The notes: a model not told the origin generated them from the sequence alone. Shown: positions 3,763-63,683, numbered from the stretch's first letter. The stretch: 64,000 nucleotides of DNA from an uncultured Pelagibacteraceae bacterium (GCA_902615425.1 CACMPD010000002.1:62001-126000); one strand, 5' to 3'. Numbers and translations are program-made.

Positions 3763-3791
3763 TAAAAAATTTCTGATACAACAATCTTGAG

Positions 3792-5177: not shown

Positions 5178-5216
5178 ACTGTTGTTTTTAAATCAATTTT
5201 GATTAAATAGTATGTT

Positions 5217-5954: not shown

Positions 5955-6002
5955 TCAATTAGATTAACAAATCATCAAATAAGGTATATTTCTTAATCAT
6001 CA

Positions 6003-7349
6003 ATGATGGATATTTTTTTAACAAATAATTTAACAAATAAAAAAGAGCAATTCATTCCAAAAAATAAAGAGAAAATAGGAATGTATGTTTGTGGACCCAC
6101 TGTTTATGATGATCCACATATTGGTAATGCAAGACCTTTGGTTGTTTTTGACATTCTTTATAGGCTACTTAAAGATAACTTTTCAAATGTAACCTATGTT
6201 AGGAATATAACTGATATTGATGATAAAATTATCAAATCGTCTAGAGAACAAAAAATTTCCACAAAAGAACTTACAGAAAAAGTAACCTCAGGTTTTTTAA
6301 AAGATTGTGAATTTTTAAATTGTGAAAATCCAACTCATCAACCTAAAGCGACAGAACATATAGATCTTATGATTGAGATGATTACTGAATTGATTAAAAA
6401 GGGTTTTGCTTATGAAAATCAAAAACACGTATATTTTGAAGTAAAAAAATTTTTAGATTATGGAAAATTATCGAATAAAAATTTAGATGACTTGATTGCA
6501 GGATCAAGAATAGAAATTAGTGAAAATAAAAAAAATTCTGAGGATTTTGTTTTATGGAAACCATCAATTAATGATGAACCTTATTGGGACTCTCCCTGGG
6601 GAAAAGGTAGACCTGGTTGGCATTTAGAATGTTCTGCAATGTCCAAAAAATTTTTGGGCAATGAATTTGATATTCACGGGGGCGGTATAGATTTAATTTT
6701 TCCACATCACGAAAATGAAATTGCTCAATCTAGATGTGCAAATGAAACAAAAGTTTTTGCAAAATATTGGATCCATAACGCCTTTATCACAATGTCTAAT
6801 GAGAAAATGGCTAAGTCCCAAGGAAATATCTTAAAGATTAAAGATTTTAGAAATAAGATTAGTGGTCAGATTATTAGATTGGCTCTAATGAGTACACATT
6901 ACAAACAGCCACTTGATTGGAATGATAAGTTATTAAGTGATTGTGAAAATACTTTAGATAAATGGTACAAAGTCTATTCATCTGATTTAAAATCAATTAA
7001 AGTTCCAGATAAAATTTTAAAGCCATTATATGAAGATTTGAACACACCTGGTTATATTGCAAACCTTCACAATTTATTTGAAAAAGCCACTAAAGGTGAA
7101 GGTATAGACTTATTCATATCAGCATGCCAATTTATAGGTTTGATGAATGAAAGTACTGAGCAATGGAATGACTTTAAAAAGAATAAAGCATCTATTAGTG
7201 AGTCTGAAATTAAAAATATGCTTAGTTTAAGAGATAAAGCTAGAGAAAATAAGAATTATAAAGAAGCAGATAGAATTAGAGATGAACTTTATGACAAAGG
7301 TGTTTTAATAGAAGACAAAGATGGTAAAACACTCTGGAAATTTAAATGA
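6003..7349 (+). CDS. cysS: Cysteinyl-tRNA synthetase
   Basis: MYVCGPTVYDDPHIGNAR, PGWHLECSAMS, KMAKSQGN (KMSKS-like). Confidence 0.97.
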   Translation: MMDIFLTNNLTNKKEQFIPKNKEKIGMYVCGPTVYDDPHIGNARPLVVFDILYRLLKDNFSNVTYVRNITDIDDKIIKSSREQKISTKELTEKVTSGFLKDCEFLNCENPTHQPKATEHIDLMIEMITELIKKGFAYENQKHVYFEVKKFLDYGKLSNKNLDDLIAGSRIEISENKKNSEDFVLWKPSINDEPYWDSPWGKGRPGWHLECSAMSKKFLGNEFDIHGGGIDLIFPHHENEIAQSRCANETKVFAKYWIHNAFITMSNEKMAKSQGNILKIKDFRNKISGQIIRLALMSTHYKQPLDWNDKLLSDCENTLDKWYKVYSSDLKSIKVPDKILKPLYEDLNTPGYIANLHNLFEKATKGEGIDLFISACQFIGLMNESTEQWNDFKKNKASISESEIKNMLSLRDKARENKNYKEADRIRDELYDKGVLIEDKDGKTLWKFK

Positions 7350-8947
7350 GCAAAGAAAGATTATACATATTTGATACAACTCTAAGAGATGGAGCTCAAA
7401 CTCAGGGTGTTGATTTTTCTTTGGAAGATAAAGAAAAAATTGCCTCAGCTTTAGATAATTTAGGTGTTGATTATATTGAAGCAGGATGGCCTGGTGCTAA
7501 TCCAACAGATACAGAATTTTTTCAAAAGAAACATAATTTTAAAAACTCAAAGCTAACATCTTTTGGGATGACTAAAAGATCTGGAAGAAGTGCAGAAAAT
7601 GATACTGGTTTATCAGCACTCATGAATTCAAATACCTCTGCTGTTTGTTTGGTAGGAAAGTCCTGGGATTTTCATGTTGATGTAGCTTTAGGAATAACAA
7701 ATGAGGAAAATTTAGAAAATATTTCTGAAAGCGCTAAACATTTTGTAAAAGCAAAAAAAGAGTTCATGTTTGATGCAGAGCATTTTTTTGATGGTTACAA
7801 AGCAAATCCAAAATATGCATTGTCTTGTATAAAAGCTGCATATGATCAAGGTGCAAGGTGGATCGTTTTATGTGATACGAATGGAGGAACATTGCCTCAC
7901 GAAGTTACACAAATAATTACCGAAGTTTCTAAAGTTGTTCCAGGAAAGAACCTGGGAATCCATGCACATAACGATACTGGCAATGCAGTTGCAAATTCAT
8001 TAGCAGCAGTATTATCTGGAGTGAGACAAATCCAAGGAACAATCAATGGTTTAGGTGAAAGATGTGGTAATGCAAATTTAATGTCATTAATTCCAACTTT
8101 TTTTTTGAAAAAAGATTTTTCATCGCAATTTGAAATCAGTATCAAATCAGAAAACATTAAAAATTTAACTGAATGTTCAAGATTATTAGATGAAATTTTA
8201 AATAGAAAACCTAATCAACATTTACCTTATGTTGGTGCTGCAGCATTTTCACATAAAGGAGGATTGCATGTATCAGCTGTACAAAAAGATCCAAAAACTT
8301 ATGAACATATCGATCCAGAAAAGGTTGGTAATACAAGAAATATTGTTGTTTCAGATCAATCTGGAAAATCAAATATTATATCTAGACTAAAAAGTATCAA
8401 AATTAATATTGAGGAAAGTGATCCAAAAATTAAAAAATTGTTGGACGAAGTTAAAGATAGGGAATTTATTGGTTATAGTTATGATGGGGCTGACGCCTCT
8501 TTTGAATTACTAGCTAGAAGAATTATTGGAGAAATACCAAGATATATTTCAATTAATGAATATGACGTGTCTGTTAAAAAAAATAAGTCTGGAGAAATAG
8601 TTTCCTCTGCAAAAGCTCAATTAGAAGTTGATGGAGAAAAAATTATATGTGAGGGAGAGGGGAATGGACCAGTAAATGCATTAGATAATGCTATTAGACA
8701 AAACGTTGATAGACTTGCAAAATATTCAAAATATCTAAAAGATTTAAAACTTGTTGATTACAAAGTAAGAATTTTAAATACAGGAACAGAGGCAGTTACT
8801 AGAGTGTCTATTGAAAGCACAGATTCAAAAGGAAAGAATTGGTTTACTATTGGTGTATCTACAAACATTATCGATGCTTCGTTCAAAGCATTAATTGATA
8901 GCTTAGATTATAAACTATTTAAGGATAATGCTCCTGCTAGTAAATAA
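7346..8947 (+). CDS. cimA: (R)-citramalate synthase / HMG-CoA lyase-like family
   Basis: DTTLRDGAQTQGVDFS, GIHAHNDTGNAVANS, GLGERCGNANL, LeuA-type regulatory C-terminus. Confidence 0.92.
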   Translation: MSKERLYIFDTTLRDGAQTQGVDFSLEDKEKIASALDNLGVDYIEAGWPGANPTDTEFFQKKHNFKNSKLTSFGMTKRSGRSAENDTGLSALMNSNTSAVCLVGKSWDFHVDVALGITNEENLENISESAKHFVKAKKEFMFDAEHFFDGYKANPKYALSCIKAAYDQGARWIVLCDTNGGTLPHEVTQIITEVSKVVPGKNLGIHAHNDTGNAVANSLAAVLSGVRQIQGTINGLGERCGNANLMSLIPTFFLKKDFSSQFEISIKSENIKNLTECSRLLDEILNRKPNQHLPYVGAAAFSHKGGLHVSAVQKDPKTYEHIDPEKVGNTRNIVVSDQSGKSNIISRLKSIKINIEESDPKIKKLLDEVKDREFIGYSYDGADASFELLARRIIGEIPRYISINEYDVSVKKNKSGEIVSSAKAQLEVDGEKIICEGEGNGPVNALDNAIRQNVDRLAKYSKYLKDLKLVDYKVRILNTGTEAVTRVSIESTDSKGKNWFTIGVSTNIIDASFKALIDSLDYKLFKDNAPASK

Positions 8948-9660
8948 TGAGTGAAAAAAACGTCACTTTTATTTTACATAAACCTCAATTATCAGAAAAC
9001 ATTGGTGCATGTGCTAGGGCTATAAAAAATTTTAATTTTAAAAAATTAGTTTTAATTAATCCAAAACCCATCTTCCCTAATGATAAAATCTTAGCAACAT
9101 CTGTCGGAGCAAAAGACATCATTAATCAAAGTAAAAAACATGATAATTTAGAAAAAGCTTTAGGAAAGATTGATATTTTAATTGCCACTTCGGCAAGATT
9201 TAGAAATAAGAATATAAAACATATTAATTTAGAAGATTTAAAAAAGATTAATTTTAAGAAGAGAGTTGGGTTTTTATTTGGGTCAGAAGCATCAGGCTTA
9301 TCAAATGAGGAGGTGAGTTATGCAAATTACACTTTGCAAATACCTACTAATCCTGATTTCAAATCTTTAAATTTATCTCATAGCTTGATCATAATTGCTC
9401 AATATGTAGCCAGTCTTATCAAATTAAAAAATATTCCGTTCAAAAAATCAAAAAAGGTTAAATCAGCGAGCAAAAAAGAAATTCAATTAATGTTAGGCCT
9501 TTGCATTAAAAATTTAGATGAAATAAATTTTTTTAGACCTAAAGAGAAGAGGCCAAAAATGTTAGAAAACCTAAGAAACATTTTTTATAAAATGGACTTA
9601 TCTGATAAAGAAACACGTATATTATCTGGTGTATTTGCAAGTTTGGGTAAAAAACGTTGA
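8947..9660 (+). CDS. SpoU/TrmH-family RNA methyltransferase (TrmJ-like)
   Basis: HKPQLSENIGACARAIKNF, GFLFGSEASGLSNEE, NLSHSLIIIAQY. Confidence 0.88.
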   Translation: MSEKNVTFILHKPQLSENIGACARAIKNFNFKKLVLINPKPIFPNDKILATSVGAKDIINQSKKHDNLEKALGKIDILIATSARFRNKNIKHINLEDLKKINFKKRVGFLFGSEASGLSNEEVSYANYTLQIPTNPDFKSLNLSHSLIIIAQYVASLIKLKNIPFKKSKKVKSASKKEIQLMLGLCIKNLDEINFFRPKEKRPKMLENLRNIFYKMDLSDKETRILSGVFASLGKKR

Positions 9661-9700
9661 TTGACAAAATAATGAGTAAGTTTATAAAGCCCTCTATTAA

Positions 9701-10318
9701 ATGACAAAAAGATTAAACTCTAAACATAAAGTTGACAGAAGATTAAAAGTAAATCTTTGGGGAAGACCTAAAAGTCCGTTTAATACAAGAGCATATGGAC
9801 CCGGCCAACATGGTCAGACCAAAACCTCAAAACCATCAGATTATGGAATTCAGTTACAAGCAAAACAAAAATTAAAAGCTTATTACGGAAATATTAATGA
9901 AAGACAATTTAGAAATATTTATAAAAAAGCTAGCATGCTCAAAGGTGATACAAGTGAGAACTTAATTGGATTATTGGAAAGAAGATTGGATGCAGTGATA
10001 TATAGAGCAAAGTTTGCAACTACAATTTTTTCTGCAAGACAATTAATCAACCATGGACATGTAAAAGTAAATGGAAAAAAAGTAAATATTTCTAGTTTTT
10101 CTGTTAGAGAAGAAGATACTATAGAAATTAGAGATAAGTCAAAACAACTTGCGATAATCGATATTGCTCTAGCTAGCAAAGAAAGAGAAGCTCCAGAATA
10201 TATTCAAATGGATGAAAAAAATAAAAAATTTAAGTTTGTTAGAATTCCAAAATTTGAGGAAGTACCATACCCAATTGTTATGGAGCCAAATTTAGTAATT
10301 GAGTATTACTCTAGATAA
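9701..10318 (+). CDS. rpsD: 30S ribosomal protein S4
   Basis: [27 protein letters not shown]4 RNA-binding domain [18 protein letters not shown]. Confidence 0.97.
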
Positions 10319-10321
10319 TAA

Positions 10322-10654
10322 TTATTTTTTATAGTTAATACCTTTATCATCAAATAATTTTTTTAATTCTCCGCTCTCATACATTTCTTTAATGATATCA
10401 CATCCACCTATAAATTCTTTTTTGATATAAAGTTGAGGTATTGTTGGCCAATCACTAAAGACTTTAATTCCATCTCTCAAAGATTGATCTTCTAATACAT
10501 TTACACCCTTAAAATTTATTTCTAACATTTTAAGTATGTTTGAGACAGTCATTGAAAAACCACATTGTGGTTGGTCTGGAGTACCTTTCATAAAAAGGCA
10601 CACATCATTAGCACTAATATGATTTTGAATTAAAATTTTTGTTTGATCATCCAT
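10322..10654 (-). CDS. grxD: Monothiol glutaredoxin (Grx4 family)
   Basis: VCLFMKGTPDQPQCGFS, WPTIPQLYIKKEFIGGCDI. Confidence 0.95.
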   Translation of the reverse strand: MDDQTKILIQNHISANDVCLFMKGTPDQPQCGFSMTVSNILKMLEINFKGVNVLEDQSLRDGIKVFSDWPTIPQLYIKKEFIGGCDIIKEMYESGELKKLFDDKGINYKK

Positions 10655-10884
10655 TATTGTTCCTTTGTTTTAATTGCTAAAGCGTGTAGTTCATTTCCCA
10701 TCTTACCTTTTAATGAATTGTAAACCATTTTATGTTGTTCAATTTTACTCTTACCTGCAAATTGAGAAGAGGTTATAGTTGCTGAATAATGATTACCATC
10801 TCCAGCTAGATCTTGAATATCTATTACAGCATCCGGCATTGCTTCTTTAATATATTTTTCGATTTCTTTTAAATCCATTGCCAT
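10654..10884 (-). CDS. BolA family protein
   Basis: BolA/IbaG fold residues; MVYNSLKGKMGNELHALAIKT; adjacent to grxD. Confidence 0.9.
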   Translation of the reverse strand: MAMDLKEIEKYIKEAMPDAVIDIQDLAGDGNHYSATITSSQFAGKSKIEQHKMVYNSLKGKMGNELHALAIKTKEQ

Positions 10885-10887
10885 TTT

Positions 10888-13077
10888 TTAACTCATATAC
10901 TTTGATAACCAATTTGTATAATAAGACTTCAATTCGTCAATTGTAACTTTTGTCTTTTCATTAATAATCATATCGTTTTGTGTGATAATACCTAATTCCT
11001 CATGATGTACTGAGTTTTTGTTTAAAATTTTCGTAACTTCTTTTAAATCTTCTTTATTCACTTCAATTAAGTATCTACCTTGGTCTTCTGAAAAAAAATA
11101 CTCAATTTCATTAATTAAACTCTTTGGCTTGTTAATTTGAATTCCTTTATTACCTTTGATGCACATTTTACTTATTGCAACCAATAAACCTCCTAAAGAT
11201 ATGTCATGAGCACTTTTCACATATCCTTTATCAATTAAGTTTAAAATTGACTCTCCATTATTTTTTTCATTAAAAAGATTTACCTCTGGTGGAGGACCAT
11301 TTTTTTCATCTAAAATAGTTCTAGCAAATAAACTTTGGTCAATATGCCCTTCAGTCTTACCAATGATTAAAACTAAATTATCAATTTCTTTCAAATCCAT
11401 TGAAATCATTTTTTCATAATCTTTGATGAGACCCACACCACCAATTGATGGAGTTGGTTTGATACCAACTTCTTTGGTTTGGTTGTAAAAAGATACATTA
11501 CCAGATACCACTGGAAAATTTAAATATTTACTTGCTTCACCTATACCTTGAACACATTCAACAAACTCACCCATATTCTCCTCTTTTTCAGGGCTTCCAA
11601 AGTTTAAGCAATTTGTAATAGCGATTGGCTTTGCCCCAACTGAAATTAAATTTCTCCAACTTTCAGCGACAACTTGTTTACCTCCTGTTAATGGGTGAGC
11701 CCAACAATATACTGCTGAGGAATCCACTGATGCTGCTACAGCTTTATTTGTTCCATGTACTCTTACAACACCAGAGTCTCCACCTGGTTTTTGAATAGTG
11801 TCACCCATAACTGTATGATCATATTGTTGCCAGATCCATTCCTTACTACATATATTCTCATTAGATAAAACCTTTTTAAGTACATCTTTTATTTTTAATT
11901 TATTCAAAGCTTCATTTCTAATTTTATTTTTTTTAGGTAACTTTGATTTTTTCCATTTGCGATCATACATTGGAGAATTTTCAACGAGTAAATTAACTGG
12001 TATTTTTGCTACTTGATCTTGGTTAAAAAATAATTCGATGTTTTTTGAGTTTGTGGTTTTTCCAATAATTGCAAAGTCTAAATTCCATTTATCAAATATT
12101 TTCTTAGCAGTTTCCTCTTTACCATTTTCTAATACTATCAACATACGCTCTTGACTTTCAGACAACATGATTTCGTAAGGAGTCATTTTAGTCTCTCTGC
12201 AGGGGACTTTATTTAAATCAATTTCAATGCCTAAATTTCCTTTTGATGCCATTTCAATACTCGATGAAGTAAGACCAGCAGCTCCCATATCTTGAATGGC
12301 AATAATTGAATCACCAGCCATTAATTCTAAACATGCCTCTAACAAAAGTTTTTCAGTAAAAGGGTCACCAACTTGTACAGTTGGTTTTTTTTCTTCAATC
12401 TTCTCATCAAAACTAGCTGAAGCCATACTTGCACCATGAATTCCATCTCTACCAGTTTTAGAACCTACATATATTACAGGTTTGTTCAAACCAGCAGCCT
12501 TTGAGTAAAAAATTTTATTTTTTTTAACCAGGCCAAGCGTCATTGCGTTTACTAAAATGTTTCCATTATAAGAACTATCAAATGAGGTCTGTCCTGCTAT
12601 GGTTGGCACACCCATACAATTCCCGTACCCACCAATACCATGTACAACTCCTCGTAAGAGATTTTTTGTTTTTTTATTTTGTGGAGATCCAAAATGTATA
12701 GAATTCAAATTAGCTATCGGTCTTGCCCCCATTGTAAATACATCTCTCATAATTCCACCTACACCCGTTGCAGCTCCTTGATATGGTTCAATAAAAGATG
12801 GATGATTATGACTTTCGATTTTAAAGACAATTGCATCGCCATCCTCAATATCAATAACACCTGCATTTTCTCCTGGACCCTGAATTACTTTTTTTCCTTT
12901 GGTTGGTAGTTTTTTAAGGTGAAGTCGTGATGACTTATATGAACAATGCTCATTCCACATTGCAGAAAAAATTCCAAGTTCAGTAATATTTGGCGTTCTC
13001 TTAAGTAACAGACAAATTTTTTTATATTCGTCAGATTTGAGACCATGATCTATAGCAATTTGTTCATTAACTTCCAT
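10888..13077 (-). CDS. purL: Phosphoribosylformylglycinamidine synthase subunit PurL
   Basis: [35 protein letters not shown]. Confidence 0.97.
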
Positions 13078-13760
13078 TATTTAATATTATTAATAAGGTT
13101 TTTGAAAAAAATTGAGCCATCTTCCCCAGATAAACTTTGGTCAATCATTCTCTCAGGATGGGGCATCATTCCTAATACATTTTTTTCTTTATTAAAAATA
13201 CCTGCAATATTTTTAATTGAACCATTTGGGTTATGTTGGTCTTCTATCTTACCTTCTTTATTACAATAATAAATTGCAATTTGATTATTATCCTCAATTT
13301 CTTTCAATTGATCTTTGGTACAAAAATAATTTCCTTCATTATGAGCAATATGAAATTCTAGAATATCTTTATTAAGATTTTTAAAATATGTATTTTCTTT
13401 GTTATCCAATTTCACGAAGACATTTTTACATATAAACTCCAAATATTTATTTCTTAACAACACTCCTGGCACTAAACCTGTTTCAACCAGTATTTGAAAT
13501 CCATTACAAATTCCCATGACCAATCCCCCAGATTTTGCAAAATTTATAACTGATTGCATTATTTTAGATTTAGATGCCATACTTCCACATCGCAAGTAAT
13601 CCCCGTATGAAAAACCACCTGGAAGAACGACCAAATCACTTTTTGGGAGTTCACTTTCATCATGCCAAACCATTTTATTGTTAAAACCAAATTTCTTGAG
13701 TGCAACATCCATGTCTCTATCGCAATTTGAGCCAGGAAAAGTTATTACAGATGACCTCAT
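13077..13760 (-). CDS. purQ: Phosphoribosylformylglycinamidine synthase subunit PurQ
   Basis: [16 protein letters not shown] catalytic Cys, MMPHPER. Confidence 0.97.
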
Positions 13761-13763
13761 TAA

Positions 13764-14006
13764 TTATTGTGTTTCAATAATTTTAAAGTTTTCGATTACA
13801 AGATTAGCTAAAAGTTTTTTACACATATCCTCAACAACAGCTTTTGCTTTGTTTGGATCGTTTTCATTTACATCTATTTCAAAATATTTACCTTGTCTTA
13901 CTTCACTTATATTTTCAAAACCCATTCCATCCAGGGCTTGATGGATGACTTTTCCCTGTGGATCTAAAACATCCTTTTTTAAAGTTATTATTGCTGAAAC
14001 TTTCAT
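13764..14006 (-). CDS. purS: Phosphoribosylformylglycinamidine synthase subunit PurS
   Basis: Small protein VLDPQGKVIHQALDGMGF between purQ and purC. Confidence 0.95.
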   Translation of the reverse strand: MKVSAIITLKKDVLDPQGKVIHQALDGMGFENISEVRQGKYFEIDVNENDPNKAKAVVEDMCKKLLANLVIENFKIIETQ

Positions 14007-14788
14007 TTACTCTTTTTTTTAATTGAAGAGAGGTTTGTTACGTTAACTGCAGATACATTTGATTGTTCATGAAGAATACCAAGTCGTTTTGCAACTTCAG
14101 TATAAGCTGGTATCAAATCTCCCAAATCTTTTCTAAATCTATCTTTATCAAGTTTTTTATCAGTAATTGTGTCCCACAATCTACAGGTATCAGGGCTAAT
14201 TTCATCTGCTAAAATAATTGTATTTTTTCCACTTTCATGAGTGAATCCAAACTCTACTTTAAAATCAACTAGTTTAATTCCGACACCTCGAAATAAACCA
14301 AGTAAAAAATCATTCAATCGTTTTAAATTTTCATCAATTAAATCAAGCTGAATAGCTTTAAGCCAATTAAATGCTAGAATGTGTTCTCTACTTATGTTTG
14401 GATCACCCAATTTATCATCTTTGAGACAATATTCTATTAATGGATATTCAAGTACAGTACCATCCTCAATACCCAATCGTTTTGTGAGAGAACCGGTTGC
14501 AATATTTCTTACAATGAACTCAATAGGAATAATATCTACAAGTTTTACAAGTTGTTCTCTCATATTAAGTCTTTTTACTAAATGATTTTTAATTCCAATT
14601 TGATTTAGGTTTGAAAGTATATGTTCTGAAATTCTATTATTAAGGACACCTTTGCCCTCAATAGTACTTTTTTTTTGATTATTAAATGCTGTTGCATCAT
14701 CTTTAAAATATTGAATAACTAAATTTTTATCAGAAGTTGCATAAATAATTTTAGCTTTTCCTTCATATATTTTTTTTCCTTTTTTCAT
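14003..14788 (-). CDS. purC: SAICAR synthase
   Basis: KIYEGKAKIIYAT, DFKVEFG, LADEISPDTCRLWD. Confidence 0.97.
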   Translation of the reverse strand: MKKGKKIYEGKAKIIYATSDKNLVIQYFKDDATAFNNQKKSTIEGKGVLNNRISEHILSNLNQIGIKNHLVKRLNMREQLVKLVDIIPIEFIVRNIATGSLTKRLGIEDGTVLEYPLIEYCLKDDKLGDPNISREHILAFNWLKAIQLDLIDENLKRLNDFLLGLFRGVGIKLVDFKVEFGFTHESGKNTIILADEISPDTCRLWDTITDKKLDKDRFRKDLGDLIPAYTEVAKRLGILHEQSNVSAVNVTNLSSIKKKSK

Positions 14789-23610: not shown

Positions 23611-25335
23611 CTATATATTAGATATCCATAGAGTTTCAAAAGGTTTCAAAACTACAAATTGGTTATTTTTAATTTGTATCTTTGATCCCATTAAATTTCT
23701 CATTTTTTGATTGTTTATATTAATCTTTATTTTTTGGGTCACTGAACTCAAATTTGTAACACATGTTATTGATTGTTTTTTATCTCTACTTATCCTTTTA
23801 AATCCAAATATTTTTGGTCCAAAATTCATATTTATTCTTATTGCATTTGGATGAAAAGCTTTTTGTCTTCTTCTAATGTCCAATAGACTACATATGCTAT
23901 TATAAAATATACTTTGTTTAGTTTTATGGTTTCTAAGTTTATTAGAAATATTTTTTAAATTCCATCTATATCTATTTACATCTCTGTTATTACCAGTGAT
24001 GATAAATTTATTTTCGTCATTAGAGGTACCAAAAATAGAATTAAAATATATCGCTGGTATTCCCTCAAAAGAGATCATTATAGCATGAGCTGAAATATAT
24101 CTTTCTTGATAAAATTCACCTTTTTTATCATAATCAGATTTTTTTAAAGCATCAAAGACAGTAATATTTGCTTCATAAACTTTTTTAGTTTTATTTTGAA
24201 CTCTTCTATAAGAGAATTTTGAACCATTTTTTTTTAGCCTCTTTAAAAAATTATTTAATGCTTTTTCATTTAATAATCCCTCTGTAGGTCTTATTCCTAT
24301 TCCATCGTGTGAAGCAATAAAGTTTAAATAACAATTTCCTTTTTCTGTACTTGGAAGATTTCTGCTCCATTTATTTAGATATGAGCTATTTTCAAATAAA
24401 AAAGCATGAATTAATAATGGTGGTAAAGAAAAATTATAAATCCAATTTGCCTCGTCCTTTTTACCAAAATAGCTTAAATTCTCTTTTTCAGGCAAATTTG
24501 TTTCTGTAATTATTGTAGTTTGTACGTTAAGCAGATCAATTATATTTCTTAAAAGTTTAATAATTTCATGAGTTTGTTTTAAATTAATACACTTACTTCC
24601 ATTTTCCTTCCAAAGATATGCAATAGCATCTAATCTAAAAATAGTAACACCATTATTAATGAGATGAATCATTATTTTGATGAATTGAATTAATACAGAA
24701 GGATTTTTAAAATTTAAATCGATTTGATCTGGGCTAAATGTTCGCCAAAGATAATCAGATTTTTTAAAAATGTTTATTTTTTTCAGTAATTTATGATCTC
24801 TTGGTCTAACCACCTTAGAAGTATTAAATTTAGAGTCGACTGTTAAAAAATAATCTTTTCCAGGTTCTTTTTTCTTAAGAAAATTTTTAAACCACAAACC
24901 TCTTGCTGATGAATGATTAATAACTATATCGGCCATAACATCACTTGATTTTGAAACATTCTTGATATCTGACCAATTCCCAAGTTTATTCTCAACTTTA
25001 TAATGATCTTTTACAGCAAAGCCACTATCGCTACTTGAGGGATAGAATGGTAAAAAGTGAATAATATTGAAGTAATTTTTTAATTTTTTCTGAAAGAAGT
25101 TTAGAAATACTCTAATTGATTTCTTTTTTTTGGAATATATGCTGTCACCATAACAGATTACCAAAGTAGTTTTTTCAGAAATATTTTTCTTCTTTTTTGG
25201 ATTTTTTTTATTAAAATTTTTGATTATTTGAACAATTTCATACTCAAAATAATCAATATCTTTTTTAGATAAGATTATTTTAAAAATATTGTCTAGTCTA
25301 GATCTTATAATTCTCTGATCTTTTTGAGTTAACAT
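23611..25335 (-). CDS. GH13 (sucrose phosphorylase/glucosylglycerate phosphorylase-like) enzyme
   Basis: DIVINHSSARG, FRLDAIAYLWKE, TETNLPEKENLSYFG, FIASHDGIGIRPTEG; adjacent to gpgS-like gene. Confidence 0.85.
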   Translation of the reverse strand: MLTQKDQRIIRSRLDNIFKIILSKKDIDYFEYEIVQIIKNFNKKNPKKKKNISEKTTLVICYGDSIYSKKKKSIRVFLNFFQKKLKNYFNIIHFLPFYPSSSDSGFAVKDHYKVENKLGNWSDIKNVSKSSDVMADIVINHSSARGLWFKNFLKKKEPGKDYFLTVDSKFNTSKVVRPRDHKLLKKINIFKKSDYLWRTFSPDQIDLNFKNPSVLIQFIKIMIHLINNGVTIFRLDAIAYLWKENGSKCINLKQTHEIIKLLRNIIDLLNVQTTIITETNLPEKENLSYFGKKDEANWIYNFSLPPLLIHAFLFENSSYLNKWSRNLPSTEKGNCYLNFIASHDGIGIRPTEGLLNEKALNNFLKRLKKNGSKFSYRRVQNKTKKVYEANITVFDALKKSDYDKKGEFYQERYISAHAIMISFEGIPAIYFNSIFGTSNDENKFIITGNNRDVNRYRWNLKNISNKLRNHKTKQSIFYNSICSLLDIRRRQKAFHPNAIRINMNFGPKIFGFKRISRDKKQSITCVTNLSSVTQKIKININNQKMRNLMGSKIQIKNNQFVVLKPFETLWISNI

Positions 25336-26555
25336 TAATAATATTTTTTATTATCATCATTAACTACTTTTTCAAGTCTTCCAAGGAAATCTGGTATGGC
25401 GCTTTTTACCCTGCTCCATGTGGGAATAAAAGGGGTATCCATTGGATTAAGAATAAAAGCCTCTCCAGCTTTCATTATGTTTATTGCAAATAATTCGACT
25501 GCTTTTTCCTCAGTGTGAGAATCAAATTTTAGACCATTCATTACTGCATCATTCCTATATATATCAATTAAATCTAGGGCACATCTATAATAAGTTGCTT
25601 TTAATGATCTAAACTTTTCCCTGCTAAAAGTGTTTCCTTGAGTTGCTAACTTTTTGATAAATGTTTTAATGATATCAATAGACATTCTTGATAGTCCTTT
25701 TGTTTCATCATCAATTGATAGTACCTGATGTTTATGCTCATAAGTATCTGCTAAATCCACTTGACATATATTTTGAGGAGAAAAACTTCTTTGCATTTCA
25801 GATAAAATTCCAACTTCTATTCCCCAGTCTGAAGAAATTCTCAATTCAGGTAAAACATTTCGCCTAAATGAAAACTCACCCGCTAAAGGATATTTAAATG
25901 ATTTCATAAAGTCTAAATAATCACTTTTACCAATAGTTTTTTCTAACGCCGTTAATAAAGGAAAAACTAATAATCTTGCAACTCTTCCATTCATTTTTTC
26001 ATTAGCTACTCTTGGATAATAACCTTTACAAAATTCAAAGTTGAAAAGGGGATTTACTACTGGATAAAATAACTTTGCAAGCATTCTTCTATCATAAGTT
26101 TTAATATCACAATCATGTAAGGCAACTGATCGCGCACTATCTCTTGCTATACACATGCCTATACAATACCAAACATTTCTACCTTTACCCAGTTCACTTG
26201 GTGCAAGATTATTTTTTTTTAATTCTTCATCAAGTTTTTTCAAACCAGCACCATCATTCCATAGAATTGAAAATGGTGATTTTAATTTCTTGAAAAATTT
26301 CCAAGCTTTTTTAGCTTGCGTTTCGTTTGCCTTATCTAATCCGATAATGATGTGATCTAAATATTTTGTTTTACTTATTTCCTCAACTATCTTTGGCAAA
26401 GCCGTTCCCTCTAATTCAGAGTAAAGACATGGTAAAATTAATTCCATTTTTCTTTGCTTTGAAAATTTTGATAGCTCATTTTCAATGACTGATGTAGACT
26501 TTGTTTTAAAGTCGTGCAAAGTTGAGACTACTCCATTTTGAGAAAAATCACTCAT
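25335..26555 (-). CDS. gpgS: Glucosyl-3-phosphoglycerate synthase-like glycosyltransferase (GT81)
   Basis: LILPCLYSELEGTALPKIVEEI, GKGRNVWYCIGMCIARDSARSVALHDCDIKTYDR, EFSFRRNVL. Confidence 0.85.
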   Translation of the reverse strand: MSDFSQNGVVSTLHDFKTKSTSVIENELSKFSKQRKMELILPCLYSELEGTALPKIVEEISKTKYLDHIIIGLDKANETQAKKAWKFFKKLKSPFSILWNDGAGLKKLDEELKKNNLAPSELGKGRNVWYCIGMCIARDSARSVALHDCDIKTYDRRMLAKLFYPVVNPLFNFEFCKGYYPRVANEKMNGRVARLLVFPLLTALEKTIGKSDYLDFMKSFKYPLAGEFSFRRNVLPELRISSDWGIEVGILSEMQRSFSPQNICQVDLADTYEHKHQVLSIDDETKGLSRMSIDIIKTFIKKLATQGNTFSREKFRSLKATYYRCALDLIDIYRNDAVMNGLKFDSHTEEKAVELFAINIMKAGEAFILNPMDTPFIPTWSRVKSAIPDFLGRLEKVVNDDNKKYY

Positions 26556-26570
26556 GCCGGGTTTTTAATA

Positions 26571-27371
26571 TTAATAGTCTAGTTTAACTAGTGCCGTTTT
26601 AATCACATCAGCCCAGCCCTCAGGTGATGGCTTGTTCGAAACTATTAAATTATCTATGTTTATTTGATCCTGTTTAAATTGATCATTAAAGACTAAACAT
26701 GGAATATCACAATTTCTCAACATATCTAAATCATTGAAATTATCTCCTACAGCTATGACCTTAATTTTACTTTCTACTTTTTTATAAATTTTAAGAACTT
26801 GATTCATTGATTTAACTTTATCTGTTTTATCACCTAAATTTAGAACACGACCACCTTCTTGCATAGTTAATGAAGAAGATCTTAATATATTGAATAATTT
26901 ATTTTTTTCTTTTTTGTCACCCTCAAATAAAAAGGGAATTGTATATTTCCGATTTAAAGCATTTTTTAAATTATTTTCTTCAAGACCAAAAATATTGGTT
27001 TGTTCTTTTGAATTCATTTTTGAAATAAATTTACATTTAGCTTTAAGATTTTCAGGAACTTTAGAATCAAAAATTTTAATTAATTCCTCTTTATCTCTGC
27101 TCAAAACTATTTTGTTTGGAAAATTATTATTAATTAAATTTAATCCATGAATTGAAGATCCATTTTCAGATATATAAGGAAGATTTGAACCAAGTTCCGC
27201 TATAAATCCCTCTATCTCTTTTTCAGTTTTACTAGTATTAGGAATAATAATGATCCCCTCAACAATAAGACTTTTTAAATAATCCTTTATCTCATCAAAT
27301 TTGAAATTATCTCTATGTAATAATGAACCATCTAAATCAGTAAATATAATTATTGAAAATTTTTTACTCAA
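26571..27371 (-). CDS. HAD-superfamily mannosyl/glucosyl-3-phosphoglycerate phosphatase-like
   Basis: FTDLDGSLLHRDNF, PYISENGSSIHG, AVGDNFNDLDML; next to gpgS. Confidence 0.85.
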   Translation of the reverse strand: MSKKFSIIIFTDLDGSLLHRDNFKFDEIKDYLKSLIVEGIIIIPNTSKTEKEIEGFIAELGSNLPYISENGSSIHGLNLINNNFPNKIVLSRDKEELIKIFDSKVPENLKAKCKFISKMNSKEQTNIFGLEENNLKNALNRKYTIPFLFEGDKKEKNKLFNILRSSSLTMQEGGRVLNLGDKTDKVKSMNQVLKIYKKVESKIKVIAVGDNFNDLDMLRNCDIPCLVFNDQFKQDQINIDNLIVSNKPSPEGWADVIKTALVKLDY

Positions 27372-57092: not shown

Positions 57093-57131
57093 TGCTTTTG
57101 TGTTGAAATTGGTAGACACAAAGGACTTAAA
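57093..57131 (+). pseudogene. 5'-half tRNA-Leu relic (29-nt perfect core match to tRNA-Leu at 62823)
   Basis: tgaaattggtagacacaaaggacttaaaa at 57103-57131 identical to 62833-62861; acceptor 5' strand degenerate (gcttttgt vs gccctcgt); no 3' half follows. Confidence 0.85.
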
Positions 57132-57305
57132 ACAGTTTGAACTGAGTAATTTCAGGCCTCAAATATTCCAAGGTAATTTAAGATACCTCATAAAATCTAA
57201 TAAATTTAATTTAGCATTCAATTAATATTAGAGAATTAATCTTAACTAATTTTAGCAAATTTGCCCAGACTTGCACATGAAATGATAAATTTGTATATTT
57301 AGGTT

Positions 57306-58169
57306 ATGAGATTTATATTAGTACTAATTTTTTCAGCATTAATATCTTTTGCAGCAAATGCTATAAATATTGATCAAAAAAAAAAGGAGTTAAAAAAAAT
57401 TTATGAGGCAGGTGGCATATCAAAAGTAGAATATGAAAAAGCTATTGAGTTCTTAGAAAACGAAACTGAAAAAGTAAAAAAAGTTAAGAAAAAAACATTT
57501 TCTTTAAAAAATCAAAAGAAAAAAAAATCTAATTTTAATTTATTAAAAAAAGAAGATGATTTAGAGGAAATAACTTCGGAGAAAATTGAGGAATTAGGAC
57601 AACCAATAAAATTTAACGACACTTATTTTACTGAGGGAATGATAAAAAAATTTAAAGGATGTAATAATAGTTTTAAATGCAGAGGACAAAAAGCTGGAAG
57701 AGCTTTATACAAAACTTTTTCAGCAAGCAAAAGTTTTGGTCAAAAGAATCCTGGTAAAATGATTAAAGCCATGGCTATGTACGAAGTTTTCTATGCCCAA
57801 AAATTATGGTACGCAAGAAAATCCATTGAAAGATACAATGCAAATGATTATTCAAAAGGGAAAATACTTTATACCAAAAAAAAAGATGAAAAAGAAATAA
57901 GATCATTATTTGGGATAAATAAAGGCAGAAAAGGTATGCGAGAAGCTCTTGGTATGAATTTAGATACCCCAGCGAAAGAGGCGATTAAAAAATTTTGGTT
58001 GTTAGGTGAATTTTTAGATCTCGGTACTGGTGTTAAAAATGACAAATTAGACAAAGATTTAAAAGAAAGACAAGAATTATTAGAAGCTTATAAGCTACAA
58101 ATAGCTAATCTAAAAAAAAAACTTCAGGATGATATAGATGAGGAGAAAAATGAAGAGTCAGTTGAATAA
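57306..58169 (+). CDS. Exported protein of unknown function with SHOCT-like N-terminal helix motif and coiled-coil C-terminus
   Basis: Signal peptide MRFILVLIFSALISFAANA; LKKIYEAGGISKVEYEKAIEFLE. Confidence 0.7.
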   Translation: MRFILVLIFSALISFAANAINIDQKKKELKKIYEAGGISKVEYEKAIEFLENETEKVKKVKKKTFSLKNQKKKKSNFNLLKKEDDLEEITSEKIEELGQPIKFNDTYFTEGMIKKFKGCNNSFKCRGQKAGRALYKTFSASKSFGQKNPGKMIKAMAMYEVFYAQKLWYARKSIERYNANDYSKGKILYTKKKDEKEIRSLFGINKGRKGMREALGMNLDTPAKEAIKKFWLLGEFLDLGTGVKNDKLDKDLKERQELLEAYKLQIANLKKKLQDDIDEEKNEESVE

Positions 58170-61100
58170 AATTTTAAAAATCATAATTATAATTTCATTA
58201 TTTTCTTTTTCTAAATCCTATTCAATTGAAAACGTGAGTGAGTTTACAGATGCAATTGATGAAGTAAGAGAAGAGTTTAACAATATTTCTGAAGCTTCAA
58301 CAGAACAATCAAAAATTATTGACGAAGCATTAAAAGAAATAGACAAAGCAACAGAATATGTTCAAGAAGCTATCGATAACAATAAGCCTGAAGACGCAAT
58401 AATAACTTTAGAGTTTATAGAAAAATCTTTAACTGATGTCGAGAGTATTATTCCACAAGAATTTGGATCTGACATGTCTAATATTGATACTTCTGTAATT
58501 GCCAAAGAGGATATGGATGTTGTTAATGAAGTAACTGCCCAAATGAAAACTGCTAAAGAAGAAAAATTAAAAGATTTCATGTCTGATTTGATTGATCTTA
58601 ATCAAAAAGGTATTGATACAATAACAATTTCCGAAAATTTAAATAGTCTTGGGATTGATACAATAGAATTAGATTTAAATTTAGATGAAAAAAAGAAAAT
58701 GGAAACATGGACCAAAGAGGAATGGGCAAATTCTTATAAAGGTTCTGTTTTAACATCAGATGGTTCTGAAGTAATTACTGATCAAGAGATAAATACTAAG
58801 GTAGGTGATTTAGAGCAAAAATTACAAGCCAATACTGCAGCAATATTAGACAAAAGATCTTCACTTACAGAATTACAAACAAAAATTGATCCTTTATCAG
58901 GACAAATCACAGAACTGAAAACACAAAAAACTAATCTCTTAGCCAAATATAATGAGGAGATTTTAAAACAATCTTCAACAATTTTATCTGATGAAGAAAT
59001 CAGTGAAAGTAAAAAGTTGGCAGATCAATTTAATAGTCAATTAAGTAATCTAACTGATCAAATAAAAACTGCAGAACAACAATCAAATTCACTTCAAGAG
59101 CAAGTACAAAGCTTAAATTTAGAATTAGCTAATGAAATTGCTAATAAAACACAACTACAAACTAATATTAATGAATTAAACAATCAACTTTCTGCAAATC
59201 AAAATATTTTATCTAAAAAAACATTAGAGCTTGATCAGCTTAAAAATACAAATTTAGATACAAAGATATCCTCTTTAAATGAAAAACTCCAGTCAGCTTC
59301 TCGTGAGAGAGATTTCATTCAAACAGATTTTGAAAGATCAATTGACTTAGAAGTGGATGCAATTGAAAGATATCACACAGCGTTAGGTAATATTGATAGT
59401 AAAAATTTTGATGATGAGGTGGAATTTTCAATTAGAGAAGTGGGTGTTATTATGGATGCTGATCCGAGAAAACATAGAGCGTTCGAGTTAGAAAAATATG
59501 CAACTTATGCAGGATTTTCTGATGATTATATCCAAAAAGGTATTAAAGCAATAAATAATGATGATTGGGGACGACAAAGAGAACTTTATAACGAAGTAGC
59601 AAAAAAACTTTCTAAAAATCCAGAATGGACTGTTGATATTCCATCCAACGCTGAACTAAATGTGATGATTGAAGAGGATAAAGCAATACAAGCTGCAGCT
59701 CTTGCTTCGATGCAGATTAATGAAATTAATTCAGCATGGGATAAAAAAATAAATGAACAAGTAAAAGATATCCAACCGTTAGCTGCTTTAAATCTATTAA
59801 CCATTAAATCAGCTGCTACCTGGGAAGGTATGAGAGAACATAGTTTTCTTGTTGAGGAAACAAATAAATTACTAGCAGGCCAAAATTTGGAAGCGAAGTT
59901 TGAAGCTTATGAAAAAGCCCAGCAAGCATATGATGAATACATGAATAAGGACTGGAGATCAGTTAATTGGCAGGGGTATAGTTTAAACAAAGCTTTAGAT
60001 CTTCAAACAAAAAAAAATGAGCTTTTTTTTGAAGCTAAGGATATTGAATGGGATGCAGAAAGACAAGCAAGAGAAAATCTTTATGCTGCTGTAGAGTCAG
60101 CTAAATCAAAATATAATGAAATTATTTCTCAAGAAAATCCTGAGCTTAAATCTGTTAAAGAAAAAGTTACAAAGATATTAAAAGATGTTCCAACTTTTGC
60201 AGATAGTGCAGAAAATCTTGCAGGACTTGATCCTGCTACTTTAAGAGCAAGATTAATTGATATAACATTAGGGAATAACAATGAATCAGAAGCATTAGAA
60301 GCAGCAAGAAATGCTATTGCAGAAATAGGTGAGGCACCTGTAAGTGAATACATGACAGGACCTTATTGGGAAATGACTAATGTTAAGGCTGCCGCAATAG
60401 TAAGATCAAAAAAATATGATTGGGTAGATGATTATGAATATATTAACGCATATTATGAAGAATCCTTAAATCTTAATTCATCACAAAGAGAATACGTTGA
60501 GGGTGAATTGAAAGGATTATTAGGCCAGAATAATATTAAATTACAAACACTTGAAAGTAAAATTTCTGATTTATCTAATGAGTTAAATTTAACTAAAGAG
60601 GAAAGTCAAAATTTAACAACTGAAATATCTCGTTTAGAAAATGAATTGTCTTCACTTAAAAATTCAGAAATTGAAATTCAAAACCAAATCAGTGATTTAT
60701 CAAATCAATTTAGTTCTAAAGAAAATTTAATTGTTGAAAAAACTCAAAACTTAGCTTCACTTCAAGAACAATTAAACCCCTTAAATGATAAAATGAATGA
60801 ACTTGAAGGTCAAAGAGCTGAATTAGATGCTAAACTCAATACTCAATTAGCTACTATTGCAAATCAAATTGAAAGTCAGGGTCAAGCAAATAATAAAGCA
60901 AATGCATTAAAGGCTCAATTTGAAAGTCAAATAGCACAATTAGATGGACAATTAAAAAATTATGAAAACCAAAGTCTTGAAATCAATAGTCAATTAGCTT
61001 CTCTTACAACTGAATTAAGTACTTTAGAAACTGAGACACCAGAAATAGCAAATCAAATTGAAAGTTTGAATCAGGATCTTGAAAACTTCATTAATATTAA

Positions 61101-62679
61101 AGCAGACTTAGCTATGGCTAGTGCAGAAAAATATAATATAGATATACATGAAAAAGTAGTAGATGCAGTAAAACCTTTGGAAAACAAATCTATAATTTCA
61201 ATTGAGGGCACTAATATCTTTAGAGTAGTAGAAAGTGATGAATTATTAGATAATAAAGGTAAATTTAAAATTCCAACTGGAACACTTACCTTAAAAGGTG
61301 AAGTTTATACAGCTGGTGCTGTTCAACCTGAAAAATTATTTTCTTTTGCAAAAATAAATAGCGATGAAGAAATAAATGGAAAAATACTTGAACTAGAAAA
61401 ACAATTTGAAGCTGGAACTTTATCAGAAGAGGAATTACGATCTCAAAGAAATAGTTTGAATGCAACAAGATCTAATATGAAAGTTGAATTTTCTGAAATA
61501 GCAGCTGAACAATTTGCAAGCACTGGTGCTTTAAAAGGGGGTGAGCAAGCATATACTGGAAGTACATTAGGATCATGGGTACTGGTTAATGCTATCACAG
61601 GTGAGCAAATGGCTAATCCATTAACAGGTCATTCAGGCTCAATTGTTTGTGAAGGATCAACCTGTGGTCAAGGAGGATCCTTGGCGAATCAAGCAGCCTC
61701 ATTCGGTGGTATGTATGTTCTTGAAAGTCTAGCGGACCAGAATGGAAATGTAGCTGGTAGATGTGCGGGGGGTGGATGTAAGTTTGATGTTGATACTTTA
61801 AGAGTGCTTGGTCCAAATAAAATCGAAGGAAATGTTTTCAATGAAAGAGGAGAGGGGTTATTTCAAGGGGCATTTACTTCATCTGAATTAAATGAAATTG
61901 AAAAATATGGAATGACATCTGGACAGAGACAGAAAGCAGTAGATTATGCTTTGAAAAATAATATTGAATTTAATGCTTCTGATTTTGTTGATCAAGATAG
62001 CTTAGAAACACAAGCTAAAGCAGTTGCGTATGCTGCAAAAACTAACACAGCAATATCAAAAATTAATAAAACTGCTGGTTCTTACGTCAAATTTAAAACC
62101 GATAATTTCACAAGAAAATTTTCGTCAACACTTACTTATACTGGTGAAACATTTTCTGGTTCATCAAGTGCTTCGCCAACTGCATCATTTAAAGTTGTAG
62201 ATGGACAAATAGTTAAAAAGACAGCTTCAGAAATAGCACAAGCACAAAGTGCTGCTCAAGAAGCAGCATCAGCAGCGCAAGAGGCAGCATCTGCTGCACA
62301 GGAAGCTACGCAAGTCGCTCAAGCTGCTGCTCAAGAAGCAGCGTCTGCTGCACAAGAAGCTGCTGAAGAAGTTGCCCAAGTTGCCTCAAGTGTAATAACT
62401 GGAAATGATGTTGAAGAACTATCTAAATTAGCTAATGATGCTTTGGGAGCATGGGTATTAGTTGATGCGGCGACAGGTAAACAAATGACAAACCCAATTA
62501 ATGGTTATAGCGGTTCATCTGTATGCACAGCTAGTGTTTGTGGCGCAGAGGGATCTTTTGGTAAAGAGGCAGCATCTTTTGGTGGAGTATATGTTTTAGA
62601 AAGATTAGCTGACCCTGAAACTGGAAATGTTGCAGGATCTTGTGCTGGTGGCGATTGCCAATTTGATTTGGGTAATTAA
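58138..62679 (+). CDS. Giant (1513 aa) exported coiled-coil protein with Ala/Gln/Glu-rich linker and duplicated 4-Cys domain
   Basis: Hydrophobic N-terminus; long coiled-coil-like heptad stretches; repeated WVLV(N/D)A.TG.QM.NP..G.SGS.VC domain. Confidence 0.8.
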   Translation: MRRKMKSQLNKILKIIIIISLFSFSKSYSIENVSEFTDAIDEVREEFNNISEASTEQSKIIDEALKEIDKATEYVQEAIDNNKPEDAIITLEFIEKSLTDVESIIPQEFGSDMSNIDTSVIAKEDMDVVNEVTAQMKTAKEEKLKDFMSDLIDLNQKGIDTITISENLNSLGIDTIELDLNLDEKKKMETWTKEEWANSYKGSVLTSDGSEVITDQEINTKVGDLEQKLQANTAAILDKRSSLTELQTKIDPLSGQITELKTQKTNLLAKYNEEILKQSSTILSDEEISESKKLADQFNSQLSNLTDQIKTAEQQSNSLQEQVQSLNLELANEIANKTQLQTNINELNNQLSANQNILSKKTLELDQLKNTNLDTKISSLNEKLQSASRERDFIQTDFERSIDLEVDAIERYHTALGNIDSKNFDDEVEFSIREVGVIMDADPRKHRAFELEKYATYAGFSDDYIQKGIKAINNDDWGRQRELYNEVAKKLSKNPEWTVDIPSNAELNVMIEEDKAIQAAALASMQINEINSAWDKKINEQVKDIQPLAALNLLTIKSAATWEGMREHSFLVEETNKLLAGQNLEAKFEAYEKAQQAYDEYMNKDWRSVNWQGYSLNKALDLQTKKNELFFEAKDIEWDAERQARENLYAAVESAKSKYNEIISQENPELKSVKEKVTKILKDVPTFADSAENLAGLDPATLRARLIDITLGNNNESEALEAARNAIAEIGEAPVSEYMTGPYWEMTNVKAAAIVRSKKYDWVDDYEYINAYYEESLNLNSSQREYVEGELKGLLGQNNIKLQTLESKISDLSNELNLTKEESQNLTTEISRLENELSSLKNSEIEIQNQISDLSNQFSSKENLIVEKTQNLASLQEQLNPLNDKMNELEGQRAELDAKLNTQLATIANQIESQGQANNKANALKAQFESQIAQLDGQLKNYENQSLEINSQLASLTTELSTLETETPEIANQIESLNQDLENFINIKADLAMASAEKYNIDIHEKVVDAVKPLENKSIISIEGTNIFRVVESDELLDNKGKFKIPTGTLTLKGEVYTAGAVQPEKLFSFAKINSDEEINGKILELEKQFEAGTLSEEELRSQRNSLNATRSNMKVEFSEIAAEQFASTGALKGGEQAYTGSTLGSWVLVNAITGEQMANPLTGHSGSIVCEGSTCGQGGSLANQAASFGGMYVLESLADQNGNVAGRCAGGGCKFDVDTLRVLGPNKIEGNVFNERGEGLFQGAFTSSELNEIEKYGMTSGQRQKAVDYALKNNIEFNASDFVDQDSLETQAKAVAYAAKTNTAISKINKTAGSYVKFKTDNFTRKFSSTLTYTGETFSGSSSASPTASFKVVDGQIVKKTASEIAQAQSAAQEAASAAQEAASAAQEATQVAQAAAQEAASAAQEAAEEVAQVASSVITGNDVEELSKLANDALGAWVLVDAATGKQMTNPINGYSGSSVCTASVCGAEGSFGKEAASFGGVYVLERLADPETGNVAGSCAGGDCQFDLGN
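61558..61806 (+). repeat. First copy of internal 4-Cys domain coding repeat
   Basis: GSTLGSWVLVNAITGEQMANPLTGHSGSIVCEGSTCGQGGSLANQAASFGGMYVLESLADQNGNVAGRCAGGGCKFDVDTLRV. Confidence 0.85.
62251..62370 (+). repeat. Low-complexity Ala-rich coding repeat (AAQEAAS units)
   Basis: Translates as AAQEAASAAQEAASAAQEATQVAQAAAQEAASAAQEAAEE. Confidence 0.9.
62431..62676 (+). repeat. Second copy of internal 4-Cys domain coding repeat
   Basis: ANDALGAWVLVDAATGKQMTNPINGYSGSSVCTASVCGAEGSFGKEAASFGGVYVLERLADPETGNVAGSCAGGDCQFDLGN. Confidence 0.85.
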
Positions 62680-62822
62680 ATCAAAAATTTAGAATTTTTA
62701 TTAAGGATAATATAGGTTAACTTGCACCAGACTTGCGCACAGGGAGATAAAATAAAAAAAATTTACTTATTCATCTTGTTCAATTATAAATATTGGCATA
62801 AACACTCATGAAACTCATTAAT

Positions 62823-62908
62823 GCCCTCGTGGTGAAATTGGTAGACACAAAGGACTTAAAATCCTTGCCGCTTGCGGAGTGCCAGTTCGAGTCTGGCCGA
62901 GGGCACCA
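62823..62908 (+). tRNA. tRNA-Leu (anticodon UAA), CCA encoded
   Basis: GCCCTCG/CGAGGGC acceptor, AAGGA-CTTAAAA-TCCTT anticodon arm, long variable arm, GCCAG-TTCGAGT-CTGGC T-arm, terminal ACCA. Confidence 0.95.
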
Positions 62909-62912
62909 GTAA

Positions 62913-63683
62913 ATGGACAGAGTTCAAATCATTTCAGATAAAAATCAAAGATCTTTAAAAATAAAATCAGAAATCCAAAAAAAGATTAATGAAAATAAAG
63001 TTAAAAGATCGAACATTACAATCGTTATTGGTGGAGATGGTTTCATGCTACAAACACTTAAAAAGAATAGAAAATCAAAAAAATTTTTTTATGGAGTAAA
63101 TTCTGGAAATTATGGATTTTTGATGAATAAATTCTCATCTAAAAATATAATAGGCAATTTACATAAAGCTAAAATGATTACTATTTCCCCTTTAGAGATG
63201 TCTGTTAAAAATAATAAAAATCAAACAAGAAAACATATTGCTATAAATGAAGTTTCAATTTTAAGACAAAGTAGACAAGCTGCTTCTTTATCAATTAATC
63301 ATGGCTCCAAACAAGTTATAAAAAAATTAGTTTCTGATGGAGTTCTTGTTTCAACACCAGCTGGAAGCACTGCATATAATCTTTCAGTTCACGGGCCAAT
63401 TTTAAGTTTGAACTCAAAAAAACTATCTATTTCACCCATAAGTGCTTTTAGGCCTAGAAGATGGAAGGGAAAAATTGTAAGTGATAGGTCAAAAATAATG
63501 ATTAAAAATTTAAATCCTAAAAAAAGACCTATCAGTGCTGTTGCAGACAACATTGAAATAAGAAATGCTAAAAATGTAATAGTAAAAACAAATCAAAAGA
63601 TAAAATTTAATCTTTTATATGATAAAAATAAAAGTCTTCAGAAAAAGATAAAATTAGAACAATTACGTAAAGAAACCTCATAA
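62913..63683 (+). CDS. nadK: NAD kinase
   Basis: VIGGDGFMLQTLKK, NSGNYGFLMN, LVSTPAGSTAYNLSVHGPI. Confidence 0.93.
   Translation: MDRVQIISDKNQRSLKIKSEIQKKINENKVKRSNITIVIGGDGFMLQTLKKNRKSKKFFYGVNSGNYGFLMNKFSSKNIIGNLHKAKMITISPLEMSVKNNKNQTRKHIAINEVSILRQSRQAASLSINHGSKQVIKKLVSDGVLVSTPAGSTAYNLSVHGPILSLNSKKLSISPISAFRPRRWKGKIVSDRSKIMIKNLNPKKRPISAVADNIEIRNAKNVIVKTNQKIKFNLLYDKNKSLQKKIKLEQLRKETS

Follow-up and report, generated by a model that had tools for sequence, protein, structure and literature searches.

A tRNA-Leu(UAA)-bounded gene cassette in SAR11, probably one unit of an array system moved in trans

We describe a 5.7-kb segment next to the tRNA-Leu(UAA) gene of an uncultured Pelagibacteraceae bacterium (SAR11), which probably is a cassette integrated by a tyrosine integrase that it does not itself encode. 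The segment lies in a stretch of 64,000 nucleotides (nt) on one contig (GCA_902615425.1, CACMPD010000002.1:62001-126000), here called the window, from a genome of ~1.06 Mb that is about 80% complete (G000). An exact 29-nt direct repeat (TGAAATTGGTAGACACAAAGGACTTAAAA) is found at 57104-57132 and 62833-62861. The copies are 5729 nt apart from start to start, and not 5730 as given in a first-pass annotation of the window, whose observation of a repeat is confirmed. The likeness covers the entire 5' half of the tRNA (57093-57132 vs 62822-62861, 36/40 identical). The ARAGORN tool identified one intact tRNA-Leu (anticodon taa) at 62823-62908, as annotated. Its anticodon arm, read from the sequence, consists of the stem AAGGA, the loop CTTAAAA and the stem TCCTT, and the identity of the two tRNA-half copies stops at the last base of this 7-nt loop, where the annotation had also placed the end of the repeat. 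The only other site resembling a further, more decayed half copy in the window has nine mismatches and no tRNA context. The features of the locus are as follows.

57094-57132, plus strand: left attachment site, a decayed tRNA-Leu 5' half made up of GCTTTTGTGT and the exact 29-nt core (57104-57132); its position matches 110 distinct half copies in relatives.
57133-57198, plus strand: decayed type-C attachment arm; 57133-57155 is conserved, and three AGTC 10-mers expected at +23, +33 and +43 are lost.
57260-57277, plus strand: left tandem 8-mer, cassette-specific (TTTGCCCA / CTTGCACA), with the first unit mutated (one mismatch to the right copy).
57306-58169, plus strand: cargo gene 1, an exported protein of 287 amino acids, predicted all-helical, of no known family.
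58138-62679, plus strand: cargo gene 2, an exported protein of 1513 amino acids, of no known family, that has long coiled coils and ends in two repeats similar to each other, each with Cys.
62721-62739, plus strand: right tandem 8-mer, cassette-specific (CTTGCACC / CTTGCGCA), with an 11-bp period, 112 nt ahead of the core; the offset of -141 from the core end is that of 56/66 cassettes.
62740-62822, plus strand: conserved right end by right-end comparison, GGGAGATAAAATAAAAAAAATTTACTTATT followed by the tRNA promoter region, supplied by the cassette; the promoter is assigned from position and conservation only.
62823-62908, plus strand: intact, rebuilt tRNA-Leu(UAA) (ARAGORN), with the right core at 62833-62861.
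62913-63683, plus strand: NAD kinase, chromosomal, 3' of the tRNA, the fixed right flank.

The attachment arm and the matched 8-mers were not part of the first-pass annotation. Its description of the cargo holds: only two open reading frames (ORFs) lie between the tRNA-half copies, both with signal-peptide-like starts, and no integrase family was found in either. The segment thus lacks the combination of an integrase with replication or packaging genes that would mark a prophage or phage satellite. No Pfam family scored above the cut-off for either protein and no PHROGs family was found for gene 1; for gene 2, family searches gave nothing beyond weak coiled-coil matches. A structure model of gene 1 (predicted local distance difference test score, pLDDT, 71) had no match in the PDB with E below 0.001, and the C-terminus of gene 2 was modelled poorly (pLDDT 46). 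Relatives of the two proteins occur in few genomes only, chiefly G054. Conservation of the gene pair at this position across the clade, with no empty sites, would have spoken against integration; the pair is not conserved across the genus.

The 29-mer is present in 287 of the 399 genomes of the genus, and about 122 of these (counted by hand from a printed table) contain two to five copies. A reversed control pattern gave no match in any genome searched. As the motif is also repeatedly duplicated at this locus in relatives, the repeat is not a product of chance. In the multi-copy examples that were fetched, the copies stand in tandem on a single contig, upstream of an intact tRNA and the NAD-kinase gene next to it, which is conserved in the genus. 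For comparison, the 5' half of tRNA-Ser(UGA) was multi-copy in 2/58 matching genomes; in the same 101-genome set, 19 genomes had more than one copy of the tRNA-Leu half. Tandem half copies in many relatives are the pattern of an additive flexible genomic island, in which insertions are added serially at one site, and the window holds one unit. The window is accordingly one case of a widespread cassette array system. The annotation had interpreted the locus as a single scar; the integration scar stands, its isolation does not.

Comparison with relatives for an empty site carrying a single tRNA-Leu had been proposed as a check. Both empty and occupied sites were found for five different left flanks (empty: L132/L137/L138, L136, L139, L126, L141; occupied: L152/L130, L157/L149, L067/L116, L156/L164, L150/L153/L155/L163). 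Pairwise BLASTN of empty against occupied sites showed that in most pairs the left homology continues up to the final base of the 29-nt core in the first half, and in the others ends within 1-3 bases of it. The right homology restarts in or just before the last, intact tRNA. The compared set contained no empty site with the left flank of the window itself, as this flank is a hypervariable region resembling surface-polysaccharide clusters. In the variable region of the window, at 25335-27371, there is a pair of genes of families F8 and F6 (glycosyltransferase- and phosphatase-like by eye). The same pair is found in L044, L051 and L183 directly behind a half tRNA, as a cassette of 2177 nt that has neither the typical arm nor a code.

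We compared 89 bounded segments from such sites. They range from 267 to 15,234 nt with a median of 2535, most are under 5 kb, and 239/278 of their ORFs point in the direction of the tRNA. In 110 distinct half copies the core is followed by AGTC at +23 (86 copies), +33 (83) and +43 (67). At least two of the three positions are occupied in 88/110 copies, compared with a mean of 0.03 after shuffling. Three main arm types, A, B and C, together account for 95/110 half copies. The arm in the window is of type C: scored against the type-C profile, its first 23 nt rank first among 127,879 window positions (score 20.5 vs a background maximum of 0.8). Within the genome_contigs collection the type-C junction pattern was confined to 42 stretches, each with Pelagibacteraceae or Pelagibacterales in its title. 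The shortest unit, of 267 nt (L199, 3218-3514, oriented with the tRNA on the plus strand), consists of a half copy, a type-C arm, a right end and a rebuilt tRNA with essentially no cargo. At the other extreme, two long type-A segments (L145:973-16235, 15.2 kb, and L164, oriented 3005-14049, 11.0 kb) have about ten gene families in common; the queries used detected no integrase in either.

The right end of a cassette, usually 112 nt before the core, carries a tandem pair of 8-mers with an 11-bp period. The sequence of this 8-mer varies by cassette and recurs near the left end of the same cassette, about 126 nt past the core. Using an anchored test, the right 8-mer matched its own left end with at most one mismatch in 71/78 segments (66 exactly), while permuted sets averaged 12.8 and never exceeded 22. 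A first scoring, in which register shifts cost some pairs, had given 43/66; the anchored test supersedes it. The 78 cassettes contain 34 distinct right-end codes.

The sampled cargo of other cassettes includes an ATP-grasp protein with a proteasome-like partner, a PrsW-like protease, a major facilitator superfamily transporter, an autotransporter, an Mrr-type nuclease and a MORN-repeat protein. Six of the 89 segments have a near-identical signal-peptide-coding start (MKKLLGIVVLGLL) ~175-215 nt past the core, followed by otherwise different mature parts. This start was seen at L154:2703, L163:2187, L066:47 and L159:8535 (oriented with the tRNA on the plus strand). A run of six pilin-like genes (FTLIELLVVVAIIGILAAVGVVAYNGYT) lies immediately left of the half copy in L118 (419-4075), and L057 is similar.

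An integrase was found in only 3/89 segments, all satellite-like elements of 7.8-10.2 kb; most cassettes, including that of the window, therefore look like non-autonomous cargo. On the chromosomes of G160 and G208, integrase elements are bounded exactly by a half copy on one side and the intact tRNA-Leu on the other. At the tRNA-Leu of G242, a 10.2-kb integrase element comes after a type-A cargo cassette. The G160 element has a type-A arm and the code CCAGCACA, as do several integrase-less type-A cassettes. In L083, a viral contig of 7799 nt, the core recurs close to each end in identical surroundings, fitting a 7.7-kb circle, and the contig is a probable circular SAR11 element. It encodes a tyrosine integrase of 545 amino acids that starts about 100 nt past the core, an AEP-type (archaeo-eukaryotic) primase and a RusA-like resolvase, and no capsid gene was recognised on it. 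Small DNA-binding-like proteins are also encoded close to the integrase. With its relatives L098, L101 and L103 it forms a candidate satellite family. L083, L098 and L103 show the AGTC offsets and the matched 8-mers on both sides of the phage attachment site (attP). A related integrase element in G366 (L117:1455-10577) occupies tRNA-Ser(UGA) by the same 5'-half design, with two copies of a 40-nt repeat at a distance of 9,006 bp, and its matched code is CTTGAGAC.

The annotation had further suggested a search for an attP among pelagiphages. In the isolate pelagiphage HTVC105P, the stretch that separates the integrase gene from the RNA polymerase gene includes 43 nt that reproduce the tRNA-Leu 5' half exactly, just past the integrase gene. 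Judged by sequence, integrases using the same core are present in G160, G208, G242 and HTVC105P. The proposed att-type scar, with integration at the anticodon loop by an element that restored the 5' half, is borne out by these integrases, by the breakpoints at the core and by the confinement of high identity to the cassettes described below. The annotation's other proposal was an old duplication. The 29-nt direct repeat on its own would permit a duplicated 5' half in which no mobile element had a part, but we reject this as having practically no chance given the conserved attachment arms, the matched ends, the empty sites and the integrase elements in the same position. Chance or simple duplication as the source of the repeat is also ruled out by the multi-copy counts, the empty sites, the arms and the matched 8-mers.

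The location of the 8-mers bears on their function. In many cassettes the left copy is followed, by eye, by a GATAAT- or TATAAT-like sequence ahead of the first gene, and the 8-mers might then be only operators or activator boxes for expression with no role in recombination. This is unlikely, since in L083, L098, L103, G160, G208 and the G366 element at tRNA-Ser the left copy falls within the integrase coding region or at its beginning (for the first five, in its 5' part), and the right copy keeps a constant spacing to the tRNA that follows, with no cargo there to be expressed. We instead infer that the matched 8-mers are paired arm-type integrase sites and that integrase specificity has diversified, because Cluster J mycobacteriophages have paired arm-type sites around a tRNA-Leu core and at the int start codon (PMC3706429).

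Whole cassettes have been transferred recently between diverged SAR11 genomes. In L183 and L190 a cassette is 99.83% identical over 2414 nt, whereas the NAD-kinase genes are 77.8% identical; a second cassette is shared at 98.4% between genomes with 75.7% identity in the NAD-kinase gene. The identity profile of L183 and L190 is 41% left of the half, 100% in the half and core, 99-99.9% inside the cassette and 74% in the NAD kinase. One cassette was also found at differing positions in different arrays. In principle, genes at this locus could be shuffled by homologous recombination that uses the tRNA-half repeats and the conserved flanks, with an integrase active only in the distant past. The 39-nt half tRNAs and the roughly 80-nt promoter regions do offer short homology, and SAR11 polysaccharide clusters have been described as replacement islands (PMC11898729). 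Such recombination would, however, have no need of cassette-specific 8-mers matched at both ends, and it fits poorly with breakpoints at, or at most 3 bases from, the core end and with a best pair in which left flanks of 41% identity adjoin a cassette of 99-99.9%. We regard it as very improbable.

The segment in the window could also be a degraded prophage or satellite that lost its integrase and replication genes after integration. Integrase-bearing elements of 7.8-10.2 kb with the same attachment layout do occupy the same site, and the arm and relic in the window are decayed. Yet 86/89 segments have no recognisable integrase and most of them are under 5 kb, and in the window the exported genes, which are host-like, still stand between matched cassette ends. 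Moreover, integrase-less cassettes are 95-99.9% identical in diverged genomes and at differing array positions, so they move as they are. Degradation in place is thus a doubtful explanation for the window.

Taken together, we favour the reading that 57133-62861 (5.7 kb) is a non-autonomous cassette that was integrated by a tyrosine integrase and belongs to a system of cassettes moved in trans, with a probability of about 0.8. Empty and occupied sites, breakpoints at the core, serial tandem insertions, an attachment layout common to cassettes and integrase elements, and recent transfer are all shown by the comparisons. In the proposed mechanism, the integrase would recombine a circular copy of the cassette into the anticodon loop of tRNA-Leu(UAA), and the circle would bring a tRNA promoter region and 5' half. 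Because the circle would carry its own promoter region and 5' half, the tRNA would be rebuilt at the right, and the displaced original half would be left on the left side, free to decay. Later insertions would target the rebuilt tRNA, so that arrays would grow at their right end. Since most cassettes have no integrase and still cross species, mobilisation in trans is inferred; the integrases that move them may come from satellite-like elements, for example L083, G160 and G208, and would match the cassette in specificity. The copy in the window looks old and, having lost its AGTC motifs, is probably no longer mobile.

Several points weigh against this reading. The window's arm has mutated AGTC motifs, its intact 29-nt core is partly a matter of ascertainment, and no empty counterpart of its own left flank was found in the comparison. 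Relatives of the integrase were found in 9/399 genomes only, and none in G000, which is about 80% complete. The junction patterns of types A, B and C had no match in the viral contigs, a collection that selects for viral genes, and none of the integrase-less cassettes was seen as a circle. The 8-mers could also be sites for directionality or transcription factors (for such factors, PMC11963761).

Cassette islands at tRNA repeats, tycheposons and integrase-less integron arrays are all known. In Actinomarinales and Methylopumilus, streamlined aquatic bacteria, small cassettes are added serially at a tRNA and leave direct repeats of part of it (PMC7771536, PMC10872708), which resembles the SAR11 arrays. 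In the passages available, the Methylopumilus repeat is the last 20 nt of the tRNA, unlike the SAR11 repeat, which is the 5' half with a promoter region from the cassette; those passages mention no arm sites for either group, nor end codes that match, nor a partner element with an integrase. Tycheposons of Prochlorococcus, reported also in Methylophilaceae, are described as tRNA-bordered cargo elements of streamlined marine bacteria and as proposed phage satellites (PMC10872708, PMC11389934). The segment in the window is likewise tRNA-bordered cargo, but tycheposons are described as 4-200 kb long and as having a tyrosine recombinase, which it does not encode. Clusters of attC sites lacking integrases (CALINs) are by definition integron cassette arrays without an integrase (PMC11389934). 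Their cassettes are moved in trans by an integrase encoded elsewhere, as those of the SAR11 arrays would be, but they use attC sites where half tRNAs with arm-like sites are found here, and the SAR11 cassettes are long and often multi-gene.

Among phages, HTVC105P has the same host group and an attP that includes 43 exact nt of the tRNA-Leu(UAA) 5' half beside the integrase gene; a 46-bp match to a SAR11 tRNA-Leu has been reported for an HTVC019P-like contig (PMC3861242). HTVC105P is nevertheless a 42-kb podovirus with a different integrase (about 297 amino acids) and other sequence around the core. It has no AGTC at the cassette offsets, no matched 8-mers were seen in it, and the segment in the window is without phage genes. 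The Cluster J attP also has a tRNA-Leu core ending in the anticodon loop, with paired 10-bp direct-repeat arm-type sites and similar ones at the int start (PMC3706429), but it belongs to a phage and not a cassette, and has one arm consensus against some 34 distinct codes. Charybdis elements (PMC12324425) were considered and rejected as a match, having archaeal hosts and no virus or transposon hallmark proteins. No description of SAR11 tRNA-Leu arrays or of matched end codes was found in searches of an open-access library, from which most subscription journals are absent.

SAR11 bacteria are among the most abundant organisms in the sea. To our knowledge few prophages have been found in them, which makes their ways of gaining genes of interest. 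The arrays provide a concrete route, in which cassettes accumulate at one tRNA gene, and near-identical cassettes are common to genomes with an identity of about 76-78% in the gene beside the tRNA. The evidence is evenly balanced on a broader proposal: a CALIN-like cassette economy at the SAR11 tRNA-Leu(UAA), in which matched end address codes would be read by the arm-binding domain of diversified integrases from small circular satellites, moving surface, metabolic and possibly defence genes between distant species. The matched end codes would predict which integrase moves which cassette, and the arrays offer a simple rule by which cassettes may be found in the many single-cell genomes of SAR11.

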